Below, in pieces: positions 46,030 through 57,749 of a stretch of 64,000 nucleotides of DNA. The notes beneath the pieces are model-generated. The model had not been told where the DNA came from and made no database searches. It was given only the letters and a program-made list of their open reading frames with translations. The DNA comes from Gemmatimonadota bacterium. GTDB lineage: Bacteria; Gemmatimonadota; Gemmatimonadetes; Gemmatimonadales; Gemmatimonadaceae. How positions within the stretch are numbered: the stretch's first letter is position 1; each line of letters opens with the position of its first letter. The position numbers were made by a program, and so were the translations under genes. The DNA lies in NCBI GenBank assembly GCA_028287235.1, contig JAQBQB010000017.1:1-64000 (forward strand), written 5' to 3'.

Positions 46030-46285
46030 GACTCATCTCCTTGGCGAGGTCCTTCTCGCGCAGGAGTCTACGTGCGCCGGGCGCGCTGCAACGTTCCCCG
46101 ACCGAGCACTTCTTTCGTACCACTTTCGAGGAAAGCGCTGCCGGCGATCGGCCTTCGTCCGTGCGCGTCACTGCTCGATGCAGTTCGAGCCCCGGGACGA
46201 CGGCGATCTGGTGCTCGTGGCACGAAGTTCGAACTGACGTTCGAGCTGATGGAGTCGCGGCGAACTTGGAGCCGAGGTGACGCGC

Positions 46286-46675
46286 ATGACGCTCGAGCGG
46301 ACGGCGGTGCTGCTCGTGGATGACGACGAAGACACTCGCGTGATCTACTCGACGCTCTTCAAGCACGCCGGCATCGACGTCATCACGGCGCGCGATGGCG
46401 CCGAAGGGCTGCGCCTCGCGACGGAGAGCCGGCCGCGAGTGATCCTCATGGACATCGGCCTGCCGATCTTGGACGGCGTCGAAGCCGTGAAGCGAATTCG
46501 CGCCACGCCGGCCTCGCCGCAAGTCACGATCATCGCGCTCACCGGCCTGTTCATCACGAATCGACAACAGGAATTGCTGGAATCCGGCTTCGACGACGTG
46601 ATACTCAAACCCGCATCGCCGCACGCGGTGCTCGACGTCGTGCAATCGATCCTGCGCAACTCCGGTTCGACGTAG
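46286..46675 (+). CDS. stand-alone response regulator receiver (CheY-like)
   Basis: 129 residues from ATG 46286; a GTG at 46277 would add three. Receiver residues are all present: the acidic pair in LLVDDDED, phospho-acceptor Asp56 in VILMDIGLP, Thr in IIALTG and Lys in VILKPASP. There is no output domain. Its kinase is unknown; the nearest kinase gene in the window is at 54862, too far to assume a link. It is divergent from the sorbosone dehydrogenase gene across a 256-bp gap in which no further gene is seen. Confidence 0.92.
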   Translation: MTLERTAVLLVDDDEDTRVIYSTLFKHAGIDVITARDGAEGLRLATESRPRVILMDIGLPILDGVEAVKRIRATPASPQVTIIALTGLFITNRQQELLESGFDDVILKPASPHAVLDVVQSILRNSGST

Positions 46676-49964: not shown

Positions 49965-51860
49965 TCATTGCGCCCACCGGGGATCGCGTTCGAGAACGGC
50001 CGCCATGTCGGCCGCGGGCATCGGCCTCCCGATGAAGTATCCCTGGCCAAGGTCGTAGCCGAGCGCGCGAAGCACCGTCAATTGCGCGTCGGACTCGATG
50101 CCCTCGGCAATCGCCCGCACGCCGATGTCGCGAGCGAGCTCGCGAACCGTGCGGACGATCGGCGCCTCGAGCTGCCGGCTCGAGATGCCTTCGATGAAGT
50201 CGCGATCGAGCTTCACTCCGTCGAGCGGTAGACCGCTCAAGTAGCGCAGCGACGAGTAGCCGGATCCAAAATCGTCGAGGTAGACCGAGAACCCGGAGCG
50301 ACGCAACTCTGAAAGTTTCGCGCGTGCCGCTTCCGGATCGCCGATCAGCACGGATTCGGTGATCTCGAGGCGCAGCGACCGCGGATCGAGCCCGGCGGCT
50401 GCAACGATCCCTCCAATTCTGGCCACGAAATCCGCGAGCCCAAGGTGCCGCGCCGAGACGTTGACGGTGAGCGCGAGCGGAACCTCGCGCGGAAAGCGCT
50501 GCTGCCACTCGCGCATCTGCGGGCAGGCGTTCGCGATCACCCACCAGCCCAGCGGCAGAATCACCTCGGTCTCCTCCGCGAGCGGGATGAACTCGGCCCC
50601 ACTGAGCCGTCCACGCTGCGGATGATTCCACCGGACGAGCGCCTCGATCTCCGTGATGCGGCCGGTTTTCAGGCAGATGAGCGGCTGATAGAAGACCTCG
50701 AACTCCTGCCGTTCCACCGCGCGGCGCAGCTCGGTCTCGCGATCGAGCCGCCGCCGCACGCGCTCCTGCATCGCGGGTTGGAAGATCTGGAATTCGCCCA
50801 TGCCGATTTCCTGGGCCCGCGCTCTCGCGACGCCCGCCAACGCAATCAGACGGTCGGGCGAGTCGAGTCCTCCCGAGCTGAGCATGACACCGATGCTCGC
50901 CGAGACGCTGACCTCCGTGTCGCCGGCAATCAGCGGGGTCGAAAGCGCATCCTGAACGCGAAGCGCCACACGACCGGCGGCCGTGTCGTCGTCCACGTGC
51001 TCGAGCAGGATGAGAAAGCCCTCCGACGTCGACCGCGCCAGCAGGTCCTCGGCCCGCACGAGAGGCTTGAGCCGCTCGGCGATTGCCCGGACCAACTCGT
51101 CGCCGACGTCGCGGCCGAGACCGTGGTAGATCGCCTCGAGCTGATCGATGTCGAGAAACAGCACCGCGAAGTGAAAGTCCGTGTGTCGAGACGCGCGGCG
51201 GACGGCCTGCTCGAGCCGTTCCACGAACAGCTCTCGGTGCGGAAGGCCGGTCACCGCATCGTACAGGCGCCGAGCCTGCCACTGGCCCATGTCGCGGCAC
51301 ACTGCCGCGAGCTCGCCACGGACCTGAAGCTCGCGGGCGAGCACCCCCGCCACCGTACGCAGCCCGGCCAGTTCTTCGTGCGACCATTCGTGAACGCCAT
51401 CCAATTCCACCGCCAGCACCAGGCCGCCAGCCTCCTCGTCCGCGCGCGCCGTTGCGTCGTCGCGGCTCGAGTCAGCGACGGGAAGCACAACATATGCGCC
51501 GCGCCGCGGTTCGTTCGATAGCGGCGCTTCGTCTTCCGATGTGGTCGGCTCACCGGCAAAAACGATCTCCTCCCTCCGCCGATGCGCCTGAAATACGCGG
51601 ATTCGCGGAGCGCCCGCCGATTTCCGAGACTCGTCCGTCGGCAGAGTGGGCGCACCGGCCGTTCGAACCACTAGCCCGACGAGTGTCGCGAAGTCCTCGA
51701 GTGTCTTGGCCGGAACCACGATCGACGCGGAGTGGTCGGGAATCGTGAAATGTTCCGAGGGCCGTAGGCCGGCTAGGCGCGCGCTCTCGTTCGTCGGGGC
51801 GCTGGGTCCATCGGAGTGCGTGAGAGGGTCGGCTTGCTCGTCGGTCACAGTTATCGGCAT
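49965..51860 (-). CDS. c-di-GMP phosphodiesterase: GAF-like, degenerate GGDEF, EAL
   Basis: 631 residues. The N-terminal 200 residues form an undefined sensory region, perhaps GAF-like. The GGDEF domain (about 205-370) has the active-site motif changed to TSEGF, so cyclase activity is unlikely. The EAL domain (about 380-620) keeps EALVRWNHP, NVSARHL, LRLEITESVL, YLDDFGSGYSSL, KLDRDFI and AEGIES, so it should cleave c-di-GMP. The degenerate GGDEF may bind GTP as an activator. Protein is cytosolic. It is read from a poor ribosome site at ATG 51860. Confidence 0.93.
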   Translation of the reverse strand: MPITVTDEQADPLTHSDGPSAPTNESARLAGLRPSEHFTIPDHSASIVVPAKTLEDFATLVGLVVRTAGAPTLPTDESRKSAGAPRIRVFQAHRRREEIVFAGEPTTSEDEAPLSNEPRRGAYVVLPVADSSRDDATARADEEAGGLVLAVELDGVHEWSHEELAGLRTVAGVLARELQVRGELAAVCRDMGQWQARRLYDAVTGLPHRELFVERLEQAVRRASRHTDFHFAVLFLDIDQLEAIYHGLGRDVGDELVRAIAERLKPLVRAEDLLARSTSEGFLILLEHVDDDTAAGRVALRVQDALSTPLIAGDTEVSVSASIGVMLSSGGLDSPDRLIALAGVARARAQEIGMGEFQIFQPAMQERVRRRLDRETELRRAVERQEFEVFYQPLICLKTGRITEIEALVRWNHPQRGRLSGAEFIPLAEETEVILPLGWWVIANACPQMREWQQRFPREVPLALTVNVSARHLGLADFVARIGGIVAAAGLDPRSLRLEITESVLIGDPEAARAKLSELRRSGFSVYLDDFGSGYSSLRYLSGLPLDGVKLDRDFIEGISSRQLEAPIVRTVRELARDIGVRAIAEGIESDAQLTVLRALGYDLGQGYFIGRPMPAADMAAVLERDPRWAQ

Positions 51861-52403: not shown

Positions 52404-52766
52404 ATGGTTGAATTCGATCGATTCGAGGTTGCGGCTCGCATCCGCGGGCTCGTGGCCGGACAAGATGCCGGGGTAGTGGGACTGACGGCCAATCGCCTCG
52501 GTGTGAGCGAGCTGGCGCTTCGCATGTCGATCGACGAGCGCGACCCACATCCAGCGTTTGAAGTGCTCGAGGTAATCGTGCAGCACTATGGCGTGGACCC
52601 GACGTGGCTCATCACCGGAGTCTATGACGCGGAGAAGCACCGCACCGCGCTCGAGGACGATGCGGCGATCGCGCGAGTGCTCTCTGGGTTGCCTCACAAA
52701 GGGCGCCCCACTCCGTCGTCCGTGCAGCGTCCTGCCGCGCCGTTGGACAAAGAACGCACGGAGTGA
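52404..52766 (+). CDS. XRE-like helix-turn-helix protein
   Basis: 120 residues. The core resembles a lambda-repressor-like HTH: TANRLGVSELALRMSI then DPHPAFEVLEVIVQHYGVDPTWLITG. The C-terminus is short and polar (about 30 residues). It lies 131 bp upstream of kaiB, on the same strand. It could control the kai genes, but the sequence alone does not show that. There is no sign of a phage around it. Confidence 0.72.
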   Translation: MVEFDRFEVAARIRGLVAGQDAGVVGLTANRLGVSELALRMSIDERDPHPAFEVLEVIVQHYGVDPTWLITGVYDAEKHRTALEDDAAIARVLSGLPHKGRPTPSSVQRPAAPLDKERTE

Positions 52767-52802
52767 TGACTGAGTCCGGATTTTCCCGCCGCCGCGCCCG
52801 AC

Positions 52803-52830
52803 TTGCCCGGAATGCGCACCCTCGCATTAT
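52803..52830 (+). promoter_or_regulatory. candidate kaiBC promoter
   Basis: TTGCCC (52803-52808) and CATTAT (52825-52830), 16 bp apart, match the sigma70 consensus at four of six positions each. It lies in the HTH-kaiB gap and would give a leader of about 60 bases. Confidence 0.35.
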
Positions 52831-52897
52831 TGCATGACCGCCCGCGGCGCTGCGTGCCAGCAGATGCGCGACGCGGCGAGCGCCACGAGGAGGAACC

Positions 52898-53200
52898 CTG
52901 TCGAACTTCGTTCTGAAATTGTTCGTGGCCGGCTCGAGCCCCCGCGCCACGGCCGCCGTCGAGAACCTTCGACGTATCTGTGAGCAAGAGCTGCACGGTC
53001 AGTACGAGCTCGAGGTCATCGACGTCATGCTCCATCCCGAGCTGGCCGAGCAGGAAAAGGTTCTTGCGACGCCCACCCTCATCAAGCAGTTGCCGCCGCC
53101 CCTTCGCCGTGTCATCGGCGATCTATCCGACTCGGAGCAAGTGCTCTTGGGGCTCGAGCTGCGGCAGGTCATCCAGCCACCCCTCCCAACGGAGAACTGA
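52898..53200 (+). CDS. kaiB: KaiB-family circadian clock protein
   Basis: 100 residues if read from CTG 52898, which has AGGAGG four bases upstream. Only that start keeps the first beta strand (SNFVLKLFVAG); the next possible start, TTG 52919, would remove it and is 25 bases from the ribosome site. The rest matches KaiB closely: IDVMLHPELAEQEKVLATPT, LIKQLPPPLRRVIGDLS and VLLGLEL. The C-terminal Gly is present where the fold-switch region of KaiB has it. In cyanobacteria KaiB binds KaiC at night by switching fold. The gene is three bases before kaiC. Confidence 0.9.
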   Translation: MSNFVLKLFVAGSSPRATAAVENLRRICEQELHGQYELEVIDVMLHPELAEQEKVLATPTLIKQLPPPLRRVIGDLSDSEQVLLGLELRQVIQPPLPTEN

Positions 53201-53203
53201 CGC

Positions 53204-54802
53204 GTGATGCTCGAACTCGACGATGACGATGCCGCCGTTGAAAAGCTGCCAACGGGTATGCCGAGCTTTGACATCATCGCCAAGGGCGGCCTGCCCAAGA
53301 ACCGCACGACCCTCGTGTCGGGCACGGCGGGGAGCGGAAAGACCGTGTTCGCGATGCAGTTCCTCGCGGCCGGAATCCGCGATTCGGGCGAGCGCGGCGT
53401 GTTCGTCACGTTCGAGGAATCGGCGCGGGACATCCGTAAGAACATGCGCAGCTTCGGCTGGGATCTGGCACAGTGGGAGCGCGACGGACTCCTCGCCTTC
53501 GTCGACGCCTCGCCCGACCCGCACATCGAGACGGTGGTTTCGGGCTCGTTCGATCTCGGCGCGCTGCTGGCACGGGTTGAATACGCGGTGAAAAAGGTTG
53601 GTGCCACGCGCGTCGCGGTCGATTCGATCGGAGCGATCTTCTCGCAGTTCGCCGACCAATCGGTGGTTCGCCGCGAGTTGTTCCGCATTGCGGCCGGCTT
53701 GAAGGAGCTCGGAACGACCGCCGTGTTGACGGCGGAACGCGTGGATGACTACGGCCCCATCGCGCGATTCGGCGTGGAAGAGTTCATCGCCGACAACGTC
53801 ATGATTCTCCGCAATGCGCTCGGCGACGAGACTCGGCGGCGGACGCTGGAGATCGTGAAGTTCCGAGGCACCGACCATCAGAAGGGAGAATTTCCGTTCA
53901 CAATCGCGACCGACGGCGGCGTCGTCGCGATCCCGCTCTCGGCGATGCAGCTCAGTCAGAAATCGTCGAACGTGCGTGTCTCGTCCGGAAACAAGGAGCT
54001 CGACGCCATGTGTGGCGGAGGGTTTTTTCAGGATTCCGTCACGCTCATCTCCGGCGCAACGGGTACCGGCAAGACGCTCAGCGTCGCGCAGTTTCTGAAT
54101 GGCGCGGGCGAGGGAGAGCGCTGCCTGCTGCTGGCGTTCGAGGAGAGCCGGGAGCAGCTCTTCCGCAACGCAATCGGCTGGGGGGTCGACTTCGAGCAGC
54201 TCGAGCGCGACGGCCGCCTGAAAGTGGTGTGCGACTATCCGGACATCGCGGGCCTCGAGGATTGGCTCGTCAACATCCAGGCGATCATCCGCGAGTTCAA
54301 GCCCAAGCGCGTGGCGCTCGACAGCTTGTCGGCCCTCGAGCGAATCGGCACGGTCAAGGCGTTTCGGGAATTCGTCCTCGGAATGACCTCGTTCATCAAG
54401 CATCAGGAGATTACCGGGTTGTTCACGGCGACGACTGCCTCCCTCATGGGTGGCACGTCGATTACCGAAACGCATATCTCGACGCTGACCGATTCCATCA
54501 TTCTGCTGCGGTACGTCGAGATGTTTGGCGAGATGAAGCGCGGTCTCACGGTGCTCAAGATGCGCGGATCGATTCACGACAAAGGCATCCGAGAGTTTGA
54601 GATCGACGGCACCGGCATGCATCTGGGCGGACGGTTCAAGAACGTGAGCGGCATTCTGTCGGGACACCCGGTGCACCTGTCGCCGGCCGATCTGGAGCGC
54701 GCGTGGAGCGAGTTCGACACCCAGATGGGCCGCCGCGAAACGGCGGCGTCGGCGCCGGGCTCGGAACGGCGGACCGGCGGCGAGCGGCGCAGACCGACCT
54801 GA
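53204..54802 (+). CDS. kaiC: KaiC double-domain circadian clock ATPase/kinase
   Basis: 532 residues from GTG 53204 (an ATG at 53207 is equally possible). CI has Walker A GTAGSGKT at 40-47 and the Glu pair in FVTFEES; CII has GATGTGKT and LLLAFEES. The autophosphorylation segment reads ITETHISTLTDS, so the Ser-Thr dyad (426-427 from GTG) is kept, with Glu in place of the Asp at the preceding cyanobacterial 427 position. Other conserved parts are VKFRGTDHQKGEFPFTI and LKMRGSIHDKGIREFEI. The tail after the last CII strand is long and polar, with an Arg-rich end. KaiC is a hexamer whose phosphorylation keeps time. No kaiA is in the window. Confidence 0.96.
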   Translation: MMLELDDDDAAVEKLPTGMPSFDIIAKGGLPKNRTTLVSGTAGSGKTVFAMQFLAAGIRDSGERGVFVTFEESARDIRKNMRSFGWDLAQWERDGLLAFVDASPDPHIETVVSGSFDLGALLARVEYAVKKVGATRVAVDSIGAIFSQFADQSVVRRELFRIAAGLKELGTTAVLTAERVDDYGPIARFGVEEFIADNVMILRNALGDETRRRTLEIVKFRGTDHQKGEFPFTIATDGGVVAIPLSAMQLSQKSSNVRVSSGNKELDAMCGGGFFQDSVTLISGATGTGKTLSVAQFLNGAGEGERCLLLAFEESREQLFRNAIGWGVDFEQLERDGRLKVVCDYPDIAGLEDWLVNIQAIIREFKPKRVALDSLSALERIGTVKAFREFVLGMTSFIKHQEITGLFTATTASLMGGTSITETHISTLTDSIILLRYVEMFGEMKRGLTVLKMRGSIHDKGIREFEIDGTGMHLGGRFKNVSGILSGHPVHLSPADLERAWSEFDTQMGRRETAASAPGSERRTGGERRRPT

Positions 54803-54861
54803 AAACGGGAACGGCCTTTGCTTTATCACCTCGGGGGACGCAACCCTTCCCACTCTCCGAG

Positions 54862-56514
54862 ATGACCAACGATTTCGCTCTCCGACTGCGGCTCGAGGCG
54901 TGCGACGCGGCGTTGGCCGAGAGCGAGGCGCGGTTTCGAAACGTCATCGACCGAAACGCGGACGCGATCGTCGTGGTCGGCCTCGATGGCGTGGTCCAGT
55001 ACGCGAACGACATGGCCGATCGCCTGTTCGGCGTGGAGCCAGGCCAGCTCAACGGAACACCGTTCGGGTTTCCGCTCATTGCCGGCGACACCGCCGTGGT
55101 CGATTTGATCGTCCATGGCGCCGCACGCGTCGCCGAAATGCGTTTGGTGGCATCGACGTGGAACGGATCGCCGGTGCACCTCGCGTCGCTCCGCGACGTC
55201 ACCGATCTCGAGACGCTTCGCCGCGAGCGCACGGCGCAGCTAGCCGAGACCATGGCCGCGGCTCGGCTCCGGGAGGTGTTCAGCCAAGCACCGGTGGCCA
55301 TCGCGGTCCTCCGCGGAAAGGAACATCGGTACGAGAGCGCCAATGCCCGCTATTGCCAGCTGATCGGCAATCGGAATGTCGTCGGGCAGCCGATTCGCGA
55401 CGCGCTGCCGGAGCTCGCGGGCCAAGGCATCTTCGAGTTGCTCGACCAGGTGTATTCCACCGGGGTGCCCTATGTCGGCACCGACGTGCGGATGTTGATG
55501 CGACGCGGCGACGATGGCCCGGAGGAAGGCTTTTTCACGTTCGTGTATCATCCGCTTCGCGAAGCCGACGGCGCGGTGTCCGGCGTCGCGGTCGTGGCCA
55601 CCGACGTCACGGTGTCCGTTCGCGCGCGGATCGAGCTGGAAGCCATCAATCAACAACTGCACCGTCAGGCCACGCAGCTCGAACAACAGGCCACGGAGCT
55701 CGAGGCACAGTTCGAGGAGGCGCAAACCCTCGCCGACCAATTAGAGTACTCTAATCAACGGCTCGAGAAGGCGATCGTGGCCGCGGAGGCGGCGCGCGCC
55801 GACGCCGAGAAGGCCAACCGGGCGAAGTCCGATTTCCTGGCCACCATGTCGCACGAGCTGCGGACGCCGCTGAACGCCGTCGGCGGCTACGCCGATCTCC
55901 TGCTGGCCGGCATCCGCGGACCGGTGACAGAAGCGCAATCGTCCGATCTCGAGCGCATCAAGCGGAATCAGAGACATCTGCTCTCCGTGATCAACGACAT
56001 CTTGAACTTCGCCAAGGTCGAAGCCGGACGGGTACGGTTCGAGCTTCGCCACGTCTCGATGAACGCGGCGCTTGGCGAGCTGGAATCGCTCGTTGCCCCG
56101 CTCCTGCTGCAAAAGCAGATCGCGTACGAGTACTACTGCTGCGATCCGGAGTATACCGCGTACGTCGATCCGGAACGGCTGCAACAGATTCTGCTCAACC
56201 TCCTGTCGAACGCGGTGAAGTTCACGCCGTCGCGTGGGCGCATCACCGTACAATGCGCGGCAACGAAAGACGCGATGCGGGTGAGCGTTCGTGATTCGGG
56301 AGTCGGAATCCCGGCGGAAAAGCTTCAGCAGATTTTCGAGCCGTTCGTGCAATTGGAACGCGGGCAAGGGCCGGCGCTGGGTGGCACCGGCCTAGGCCTC
56401 GCGATCAGCCGCGACCTCGCCAGGGCAATGGGCGGCGAATTGACGGCGGAGAGCAAGCTGGATGAAGGATCGACTTTTACGTTGACTCTCCCGCGACGAG
56501 CGCCAGAAGATTGA
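54862..56514 (+). CDS. PAS-PAS histidine kinase, likely output of KaiC
   Basis: 550 residues from ATG 54862, 59 bases after kaiC. PAS domains lie at about 18-125 (FRNVIDRNADAIVVVGLDG) and 135-255. A coiled coil (about 255-320, Gln/Glu-rich) follows. HisKA has MSHELRTPLNAVGGYADLL with His331, and HATPase has NLLSNAVKFTP, VRDSGVGIP and GGTGLGLAISRDLA. It is cytosolic, without membrane spans. Its position suggests that KaiC controls it, as in KaiBC-kinase loci of other bacteria; unlike SasA it has no KaiB-like domain. No cognate response regulator is adjacent. Confidence 0.93.
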   Translation: MTNDFALRLRLEACDAALAESEARFRNVIDRNADAIVVVGLDGVVQYANDMADRLFGVEPGQLNGTPFGFPLIAGDTAVVDLIVHGAARVAEMRLVASTWNGSPVHLASLRDVTDLETLRRERTAQLAETMAAARLREVFSQAPVAIAVLRGKEHRYESANARYCQLIGNRNVVGQPIRDALPELAGQGIFELLDQVYSTGVPYVGTDVRMLMRRGDDGPEEGFFTFVYHPLREADGAVSGVAVVATDVTVSVRARIELEAINQQLHRQATQLEQQATELEAQFEEAQTLADQLEYSNQRLEKAIVAAEAARADAEKANRAKSDFLATMSHELRTPLNAVGGYADLLLAGIRGPVTEAQSSDLERIKRNQRHLLSVINDILNFAKVEAGRVRFELRHVSMNAALGELESLVAPLLLQKQIAYEYYCCDPEYTAYVDPERLQQILLNLLSNAVKFTPSRGRITVQCAATKDAMRVSVRDSGVGIPAEKLQQIFEPFVQLERGQGPALGGTGLGLAISRDLARAMGGELTAESKLDEGSTFTLTLPRRAPED

Positions 56515-57749
56515 CCAGGTCGAGTGTTCTCTTGATGCTGGCCGCAGCCGCGTGCCGCACCGCGCCCGTGCCCGTGCCCATGCCTGTCTCCGCGCCGGCA
56601 GCGGCGGTGCCGCGCCCCGTCGGGATGGACTCGCGTCTCGGGTCGACGCTCGACTCGCTCGCCGCCGACGGTATCCGTGAGGGTGCCGCGCCGGGCATGT
56701 CGATCGCCGTGGCGCGCTACGGCCGACTCGTGCATCTGCGCGGTTATGGCGCAACGGACTGGGATCCAAGCTCCGACGCCGTCACCGACTCGACGCTGTA
56801 CGATCTCGCGTCGCTCACCAAGGTCATCGCGACGACGACCGCCGCGATGATCCTCGAGGAAGAGGGGCGTCTCGACATCGCGCGGCCGGTGCACGACTAC
56901 GTACCGGACTTCAACGCACCCGACAAGGCGCCGATCACCGTGCGCATGCTGCTCACGCACTCAGGTGGGTTCGAGGCGGGCGCCAGTCTCTACACGCGCG
57001 CGCGCGGCCGCGCGGAGTATCTCGCGCTGATCAATGCGCGCCCGCTGCGGTACGCGCCGGGCACACAGACGGTCTACAGCGATTGGGACATGGTGATCCT
57101 GCAGGCGGTCATCGAGCGCATCGCGGGACAGACACTCGACCAATTCGTCGCCGCGCGCGTCTTCGCGCCGCTTGGGCTCCGAGACACGCGATTCAATCCC
57201 GACACGGCCGACGCCGCCCTGCGCCGCCGCATTGCCGCGACGGCCATCGACACGTCGCGCGGCGGCCTGCTGCGCGGCGTCGTGCACGACGGCAACGCAT
57301 GGGCGCTCGGCGGCGTCTCCGGTCACGCCGGACTGTTTTCGTCGGCGCGCGACCTCGCGGTGTTCGCGGGCATGCTGCTCGACGGCGGCTCGTATGGCGG
57401 CGTGCGCATTCTTCGACCGGAAACGATCGCGCGCTGGACGGCGCGACAATCGCCGATGTCGAGCCGCGCGCTCGGCTGGGATACGCCTGCGCCGGCGGCG
57501 AGCTCGGGTCACTACTTCTCGCCCCGCAGCTTCGGACATACGGGGTTCACCGGTACGTCGCTCTGGATCGATCCCGAGCGCGGCGTGTTCGTGGTGCTCC
57601 TGATGAATCGCGTCAATTCGCACGGCGTGAGCGAGCGGCACACGCAGCTGCGGCGCGATGTGTCGGACGCCGTGCAGTCGGCGATTCTCGACGCGCCGTT
57701 GATCGACTGGGAGGCGAGGCTGCATCCGTCGACGAACCGCGTGCCGTAA
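56511..57749 (+). CDS. serine hydrolase lipoprotein (beta-lactamase class C family)
   Basis: 412 residues from TTG 56511, overlapping the kinase stop. The lipobox is LAAAAC with Cys15. The active-site motif SLTK is at 101-104, a Tyr lies in VYSDWD, and HTGFTG replaces the KTG-type motif. Such proteins include D-aminopeptidases, esterases and penicillin-binding-like enzymes; actual beta-lactamase activity is not implied. Overlap with the histidine kinase gene puts it in the kai operon or at least in a coupled unit. Confidence 0.85.
   Translation: MTRSSVLLMLAAAACRTAPVPVPMPVSAPAAAVPRPVGMDSRLGSTLDSLAADGIREGAAPGMSIAVARYGRLVHLRGYGATDWDPSSDAVTDSTLYDLASLTKVIATTTAAMILEEEGRLDIARPVHDYVPDFNAPDKAPITVRMLLTHSGGFEAGASLYTRARGRAEYLALINARPLRYAPGTQTVYSDWDMVILQAVIERIAGQTLDQFVAARVFAPLGLRDTRFNPDTADAALRRRIAATAIDTSRGGLLRGVVHDGNAWALGGVSGHAGLFSSARDLAVFAGMLLDGGSYGGVRILRPETIARWTARQSPMSSRALGWDTPAPAASSGHYFSPRSFGHTGFTGTSLWIDPERGVFVVLLMNRVNSHGVSERHTQLRRDVSDAVQSAILDAPLIDWEARLHPSTNRVP

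Follow-up and report, generated by a model that had tools for sequence, protein, structure and literature searches.

Introduction

Outside cyanobacteria, the Kai homologues found most often are KaiC3-like proteins (PMC5520375), and KaiC3 was found not to interact with SasA in a 2020 study that stated its output pathway to be unknown (PMC6989803). In the KaiA3-KaiB3-KaiC3 system of Synechocystis and others, KaiA3 consists of a receiver and a KaiA-like domain and is encoded upstream of kaiB3; it is listed in just five non-cyanobacterial genera, and in Microcystis kaiC3 lies apart from kaiA3-kaiB3 (PMC11372060). The present work concerns a tandem kaiB-kaiC-histidine kinase cluster, read from the open reading frames (ORFs) on the + strand of a 64,000-nucleotide stretch of DNA from a Gemmatimonadota bacterium, here called the window (G000:C20:1-64000, part of a 5.73-Mb genome), and in particular the N-terminal PAS domain of its kinase, which by its sequence belongs to a PAS subfamily tied to kaiBC that we define in this analysis and name KaiPAS. 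KaiBC without KaiA but with a kinase is already a known kind of system, and the new element is the link between KaiPAS and kaiBC. We put at roughly 0.45 the probability that the cluster encodes a KaiBC timer that is of the KaiC1/KaiC3 type and independent of KaiA, together with an output kinase that would read it through KaiPAS. A term search, whose scope did not extend to subscription papers, found no paper joining the Gemmatimonadota and a kai system.

With KaiA3-KaiB3-KaiC3 the locus shares the kaiB-kaiC order and the S-T phosphorylation sites, and the cyanobacterial rows among the tree relatives of the window KaiC are either Microcystis or loci in which a KaiA3-like gene precedes kaiB. It differs in lacking a detectable KaiA3-type protein anywhere in the genome, in the changed tail motif of its KaiC, and in the KaiPAS kinase adjoining kaiBC, whereas the cyanobacterial loci are without such a kinase. 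The kaiC-kaiB-PAS/histidine kinase clusters of Rhodopseudomonas palustris and Rhodobacter (PMC4794148; PDB 8dba) are KaiA-less as well and include a PAS histidine kinase, and an earlier note on this DNA had likened the layout to that of Rhodopseudomonas. The comparison breaks down in the detail: those systems have a KaiC2-type protein with T-S-S sites and a longer C-terminus, while in the window kaiB comes first, the sites are T-S-T, and KaiC scores 319 bits against the Rhodobacter protein (8dba) vs. 598-705 bits against cyanobacterial-type KaiC in the PDB. Judged by these comparisons, the window KaiC is of the KaiC1/KaiC3 type and not of the Rhodopseudomonas/Rhodobacter type. The Rhodobacter-type counterpart in the Gemmatimonadota (type C below) is without KaiPAS at all but one locus, that of genome G262.

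The cyanobacterial KaiABC system with SasA and CikA has the KaiB and KaiC core residues in common with the window and differs from it in that no KaiA was found in the window genome. Unlike SasA, the window kinase begins with a PAS domain and has no KaiB-like N-terminal domain; PF07689 matches only two places in the window genome, both of them kaiB. Prochlorococcus, which according to the literature has lost KaiA and for which an hourglass has been proposed, also kept KaiBC, but belongs to another phylum and KaiC clade, and the window has in addition the co-encoded KaiPAS kinase.

Organization of the kai cluster

The earlier note had read four genes on one strand, encoding a helix-turn-helix (HTH) protein, KaiB, a double-domain KaiC and a PAS-PAS histidine kinase, and both the identities of the three kai-cluster products and the spacing were borne out. 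All four ORFs are on the + strand; three bases separate the kaiB stop from the GTG at 53204, and 59 bases the kaiC stop from the kinase ATG at 54862. The kaiB gene (52898..53200, 100 aa) matches PF07689 at E 7e-28 and solved KaiB at 105 bits, while its 108 bits stay below the cut-off of 145 of the narrower cyanobacterial TIGR02654. Its start is likely CTG 52898 (SNFVLKLFVAG), just 3' of an AGGAGG read from the sequence as ribosome-binding site (52888..52893, +), because TTG 52919, the sole alternative in-frame start at hand, would delete the first beta strand; in our reading of the window sequence no in-frame ATG, GTG or TTG was seen close upstream of this CTG, and the close relative L043 has a TTG near the matching position. 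The fold-switch residues K58, G89 and D91 of Thermosynechococcus KaiB correspond to K54, G85 and E87, the Lys and Gly being kept and the Asp replaced by Glu.

The kaiC gene (53207..54802, +, 531 aa) encodes two KaiC domains and was assigned by NCBIfam circ_KaiC (TIGR02655, 652 bits vs. a cut-off of 546), PRK09302 (698 vs. 408), PDB matches and its place in the tree, within the clade called type A below. Both Walker A motifs are intact (CI, GTAGSGKT, 53321..53344, with K45 equivalent to Synechococcus K52; CII, GATGTGKT, 54053..54076), and so are both catalytic pairs (E70/E71, 53414-53419; E312/E313, 54140-54145) and the KFRG and KMRG fingers carrying the Lys and Arg of CI and CII, all on the + strand. 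The phosphorylation motif T420-E-T-H-I-S425-T426 (54464..54484, +) aligns T420, S425 and T426 with Synechococcus T426, S431 and T432. In the A-loop, an alignment read by eye places Gly at Synechococcus R488, a change that fits the argument that KaiC2 and KaiC3 autophosphorylate independently of KaiA (PMC5520375). A basic motif, ERRxGxxxRRR, ends several type A KaiC proteins (the window's, at 54757-54799, and those of L033, L035, L036 and L038), and ERRxGxxRR-like stretches stand at the N-terminal start of some kinases (L051, L060, L065).

The kinase (54862..56514, +, 550 aa) is composed of KaiPAS (54928..55251; a PAS domain in Pfam), a second PAS of the PAS_4 family (residues 140-252, 55279..55617; PF08448, E 4e-21), and HisKA and HATPase_c domains (residues 321-389 and 436-546, 55822..56499; PF00512, 3e-18, and PF02518, 1e-31), with H331 in SHELRTP as phospho-acceptor.

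Kai loci across the Gemmatimonadota

KaiB occurs in 40 of 395 Gemmatimonadota genomes, and since conserved kaiB-kaiC-kinase neighbourhoods recur among them, the window cluster is far beyond chance. By gene order and KaiC tree the loci fall into three types. KaiC proteins of type A, to which the window belongs, are 73-80% identical to its own, those of type B 58-64% and those of type C 33-38%. Types A and B form separate, fully supported clades in which kaiB precedes kaiC and KaiC has the S-T sites; type C, again a separate clade, has Rhodobacter-like KaiC (649 bits to 8dba), and here kaiB, at some loci in tandem copies, comes after kaiC.

The arrangement of a kaiB-kaiC cluster with its own kinase and no KaiA, as the earlier note had described it, is thus conserved in relatives, where a KaiPAS kinase adjoins kaiBC at 16/16 type A and 13/13 type B loci (in G095 the domain is only a fragment, at a contig end). 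The note's own refuting condition, absence of the gene order from close relatives, is thus contradicted in the main, although the kinase is divergent and upstream of kaiB at 14 of the 16 type A loci, unlike that of the window, where the downstream kinase is the only one. Among type A loci, downstream kinases with the window's architecture or one close to it were seen at L034, L037 and L038, partly at L033, and also at L077. Type B has a single kinase in the downstream position at all 13 loci. Nor is the cluster the only one in its genome, which holds a type A (C20) and a type B (C23) kaiBC-kinase cluster. The latter (L060, G000:C23:118600-132800, - strand, at ~4.4-7.3 kb) encodes KaiB and KaiC that are 52 and 58% identical to those of the window, and would follow the same design.

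The type A divergent kinases and several of type B (e.g., L060:3804-4367, -) carry a helical C-terminal domain of ~190 aa with two invariant His. A reading of these long kinases as receiver hybrids was rejected, the tail giving no receiver match and being all-helical with globin-fold neighbours. It has no confident Pfam match (a weak RsbRD_N match in 2/17), is modelled by AlphaFold2 with a predicted local distance difference test (pLDDT) of 90, and has globin-coupled sensors as Foldseek neighbours (template modelling score ~0.5-0.6; E 0.07, alone not significant); the model suggests that it is possibly a globin-like sensor.

Linkage of KaiPAS to kaiBC

The window KaiPAS shares 34-58% identity with the corresponding domains of other Gemmatimonadota kinases linked to Kai, and matches its own profile at E 3e-38 (G000:C20:54928-55242), the window sequence being in the seed. 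The linkage within the Gemmatimonadota is in-sample, as the profile was built from these kinases. It yielded 36 matches below 1e-25 in 32 of the 395 genomes, followed by a gap to 1e-17, and 33 of the 36 lie at kaiBC. The other three (G363:C278, G226:C63 and G220:C252; L162-L164) have no KaiB or KaiC within the examined 6-11 kb, and are orphans or sit on broken contigs. No KaiPAS was found in the ten Gemmatimonadota genomes with only type C loci.

Out of sample, 148 Nitrospirota genomes gave eight KaiPAS matches in five genomes, all eight within ~7 kb of kaiB, and none in the kaiB-less genomes among those searched; genome co-occurrence of KaiPAS and kaiB alone has a hypergeometric probability of ~5e-6 (calculated by hand). 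A further 46 non-cyanobacterial genomes with KaiC were searched, 42 of which have a KaiPAS match of at least 70 bits, and in 34 of these 42 genomes of other phyla the best match adjoins kaiC. Most of the KaiPAS genes are on the same strand and either immediately follow kaiC or precede kaiB. The proteins themselves are diverse: among 60 at kai loci, HATPase was found in 34, HisKA in 29, a receiver in 17, GGDEF in 13 and EAL in 5, and 13 loci encode a KaiPAS protein with a KaiA-like domain at its C-terminus. KaiPAS thus adjoins KaiC3-like kaiBC from the Gemmatimonadota to the Chloroflexota, and is a concrete candidate for the missing output link of KaiC3.

The same adjacency might instead be due only to common descent, as a mobile cassette of kaiBC and kinase, in which the kinase acts independently and KaiBC is a switch for stress or energy state, not for daily time. 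A KaiC2-type protein of Legionella is reported to act in stress response (PMC5520375), a photosynthetic reaction centre was searched for in the window genome and not found, and the trees of KaiPAS and KaiC mirror each other poorly (values below). Such a cassette would nevertheless be expected to stay fixed, whereas KaiPAS is retained while position and strand change (at 14/16 type A loci the kinase is upstream and divergent, in type B it is downstream), and elsewhere GGDEF replaces the kinase at some loci while KaiPAS stays. We regard this explanation as improbable.

Apparent loss of KaiA

The KaiA family PF07688 matched none of the 40 Kai-bearing Gemmatimonadota genomes, while the S. elongatus control did match. 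Taken alone this search was judged too weak, PF07688 scoring a KaiA3-type protein at just 18 bits, and a KaiA3-type profile was therefore built. The gene just upstream of kaiB was checked for a KaiA-like domain at 80 named KaiC loci; a KaiA-like C-terminal domain was found directly upstream of kaiB at 66 loci outside types A and B, in many phyla, and at none of the type A or B loci among those checked. A profile made from 42 of these domains gave no convincing match in the 40 genomes, the best reaching 8e-4 over short fragments, and its controls, three genomes, were recovered at 1e-41 to 1e-47. The KaiA-like domains of the 66 loci are joined to receivers, to MASE3-PAS or, at 13 loci, to KaiPAS.

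The tail of KaiC agrees with the missing KaiA: the motif E..RL..LF accompanies KaiA-like genes, while the type A tail reads SP.D.ER.WS and that of type B is not conserved. The Gemmatimonadota clusters offer a ready series of cases in which KaiA was apparently lost, with a tail changed in type A and decayed in type B, useful for asking what KaiA contributes to a KaiBC timer. One Gemmatimonadaceae metagenome-assembled genome, Prado131, has a locus outside types A and B (L145), where kaiB is preceded by a KaiA-like gene and KaiPAS lies within an ORF of 1253 aa; this kai locus looks like a separate acquisition.

Proposed mechanism and the role of KaiPAS

In the proposed timer, KaiC would be a double-ring ATPase autophosphorylating at S425 and T426, and fold-switched KaiB would bind the CI ring of phosphorylated KaiC and aid its return to the dephosphorylated state. 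As no KaiA-like protein was found in the genome, the cycle would most likely be damped or run like an hourglass, and not sustain itself as an oscillator; for S. elongatus without KaiA, a damped rhythm is reported (PMC7205874). The kinase would then read the state of KaiC or KaiB through its N-terminal KaiPAS, the presumed contact point, and signal by phospho-relay to an unlinked response regulator. The readout through KaiPAS is suggested by the retention of the domain when the effector changes, by its presence in output enzymes and KaiA-like proteins alike, and by the report that KaiC3 does not use SasA (PMC6989803).

A broader and more tentative proposal, which we hold to be somewhat less probable than the timer itself, is that KaiPAS serves specifically as a docking domain, through which KaiC1/KaiC3-type KaiBC, along with KaiA-like proteins where these are present, would pass time to interchangeable effectors in many phyla, and that in the Gemmatimonadota this route outlived the loss of KaiA. 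If true, it would constitute a clock output route separate from SasA and CikA, leading to histidine kinases, diguanylate cyclases and phosphodiesterases. KaiPAS, being wider than the window cluster, is in our opinion the finding that deserves work, as a testable candidate for clock-to-cell signalling.

Several observations weigh against a KaiPAS readout of the clock. No response regulator adjoins the window kinase. The domain is present in 25 of 146 cyanobacterial genomes, where the listed matches are mostly inside proteins of 800-2000 aa, and in some genomes of other phyla extra copies lie away from kaiC; both sets of copies led us to reject that KaiPAS is exclusive to kaiBC. KaiPAS correlates weakly with KaiC in the mirror-tree comparison (r 0.30, partial 0.21); with 0.22 (partial 0.08) for the kinase core and 0.68 for KaiB, the signal leans slightly and weakly towards KaiPAS over the kinase core. 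Finally, the nearest solved folds found by Foldseek are sensor PAS domains (FixL, DosP, WalK), which fit an input role as well. As to receivers, the only one noticed near the kinase is a single-domain CheY-like response regulator at 46277-46675 (+), 6 kb upstream of kaiB.

That input role is the main rival: KaiPAS would not read KaiC but sense the environment, setting or resetting the KaiBC timer or acting beside it, and KaiPAS-KaiA-like proteins and KaiPAS kinases would sense the same stimulus. Besides the fold neighbours, the 13 fusions to KaiA-like domains, which are input factors for KaiC, and the second PAS of the window kinase speak in its favor. The predicted structure speaks against it. 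The AlphaFold2 model (78 sequences, pLDDT 93.7) is a short PAS fold with helices only at residues 2-19, 39-45 and 103-117; between residues 45 and 66 it has no helix, and a 20-residue loop with an FGFP motif occupies the region of the heme-binding helix of FixL, so that the usual heme-PAS helix is absent. The KaiPAS alignment contains no invariant His or Cys that could serve as cofactor ligand, and a profile search of the PDB returned distant PAS domains only (WalK, 36 bits). Given the missing helix in the model and the lack of an invariant His or Cys, a classical heme or LOV (light-oxygen-voltage) sensor appears unlikely. Moreover, shared sensing alone does not explain why kinase, GGDEF and EAL outputs alike adjoin kaiBC. 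We consider the input role unlikely on balance, though a more serious contender than the cassette, and retain the KaiPAS output kinase as the preferred reading.

The upstream gene and other neighbors

The ORF at 52404..52766 (+, 120 aa) has only a sub-threshold Pfam match (HTH_19, E 0.075), but it is probably a real small gene, because its relatives have the same XRE-like ending, YGVDPTWLxTG. The earlier note had proposed its product as a candidate regulator of the cluster, and the gene does precede kaiB on the same strand, with 131 bases between it and the kaiB start, and encodes an XRE-like sequence. No homologue is present at any other kai locus examined, however, and such homologues as occur, in a small number of genomes from the same genus and family, lie away from kai. 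It is thus probably a lineage-specific neighbor, rejected as a conserved part of the system, and it seems highly improbable that the protein regulates transcription of the kai operon as part of the module.

Divergent from this gene, a GGDEF-EAL protein is encoded at 49965-51860 (-), where type A relatives have their divergent kinase; Pfam shows no PAS in it, and Kai-linked KaiPAS proteins elsewhere often carry GGDEF or EAL. On the other side of the cluster, a serine hydrolase of the beta-lactamase/PBP4B family follows at 56511-57749 (+), its TTG start overlapping the kinase stop.

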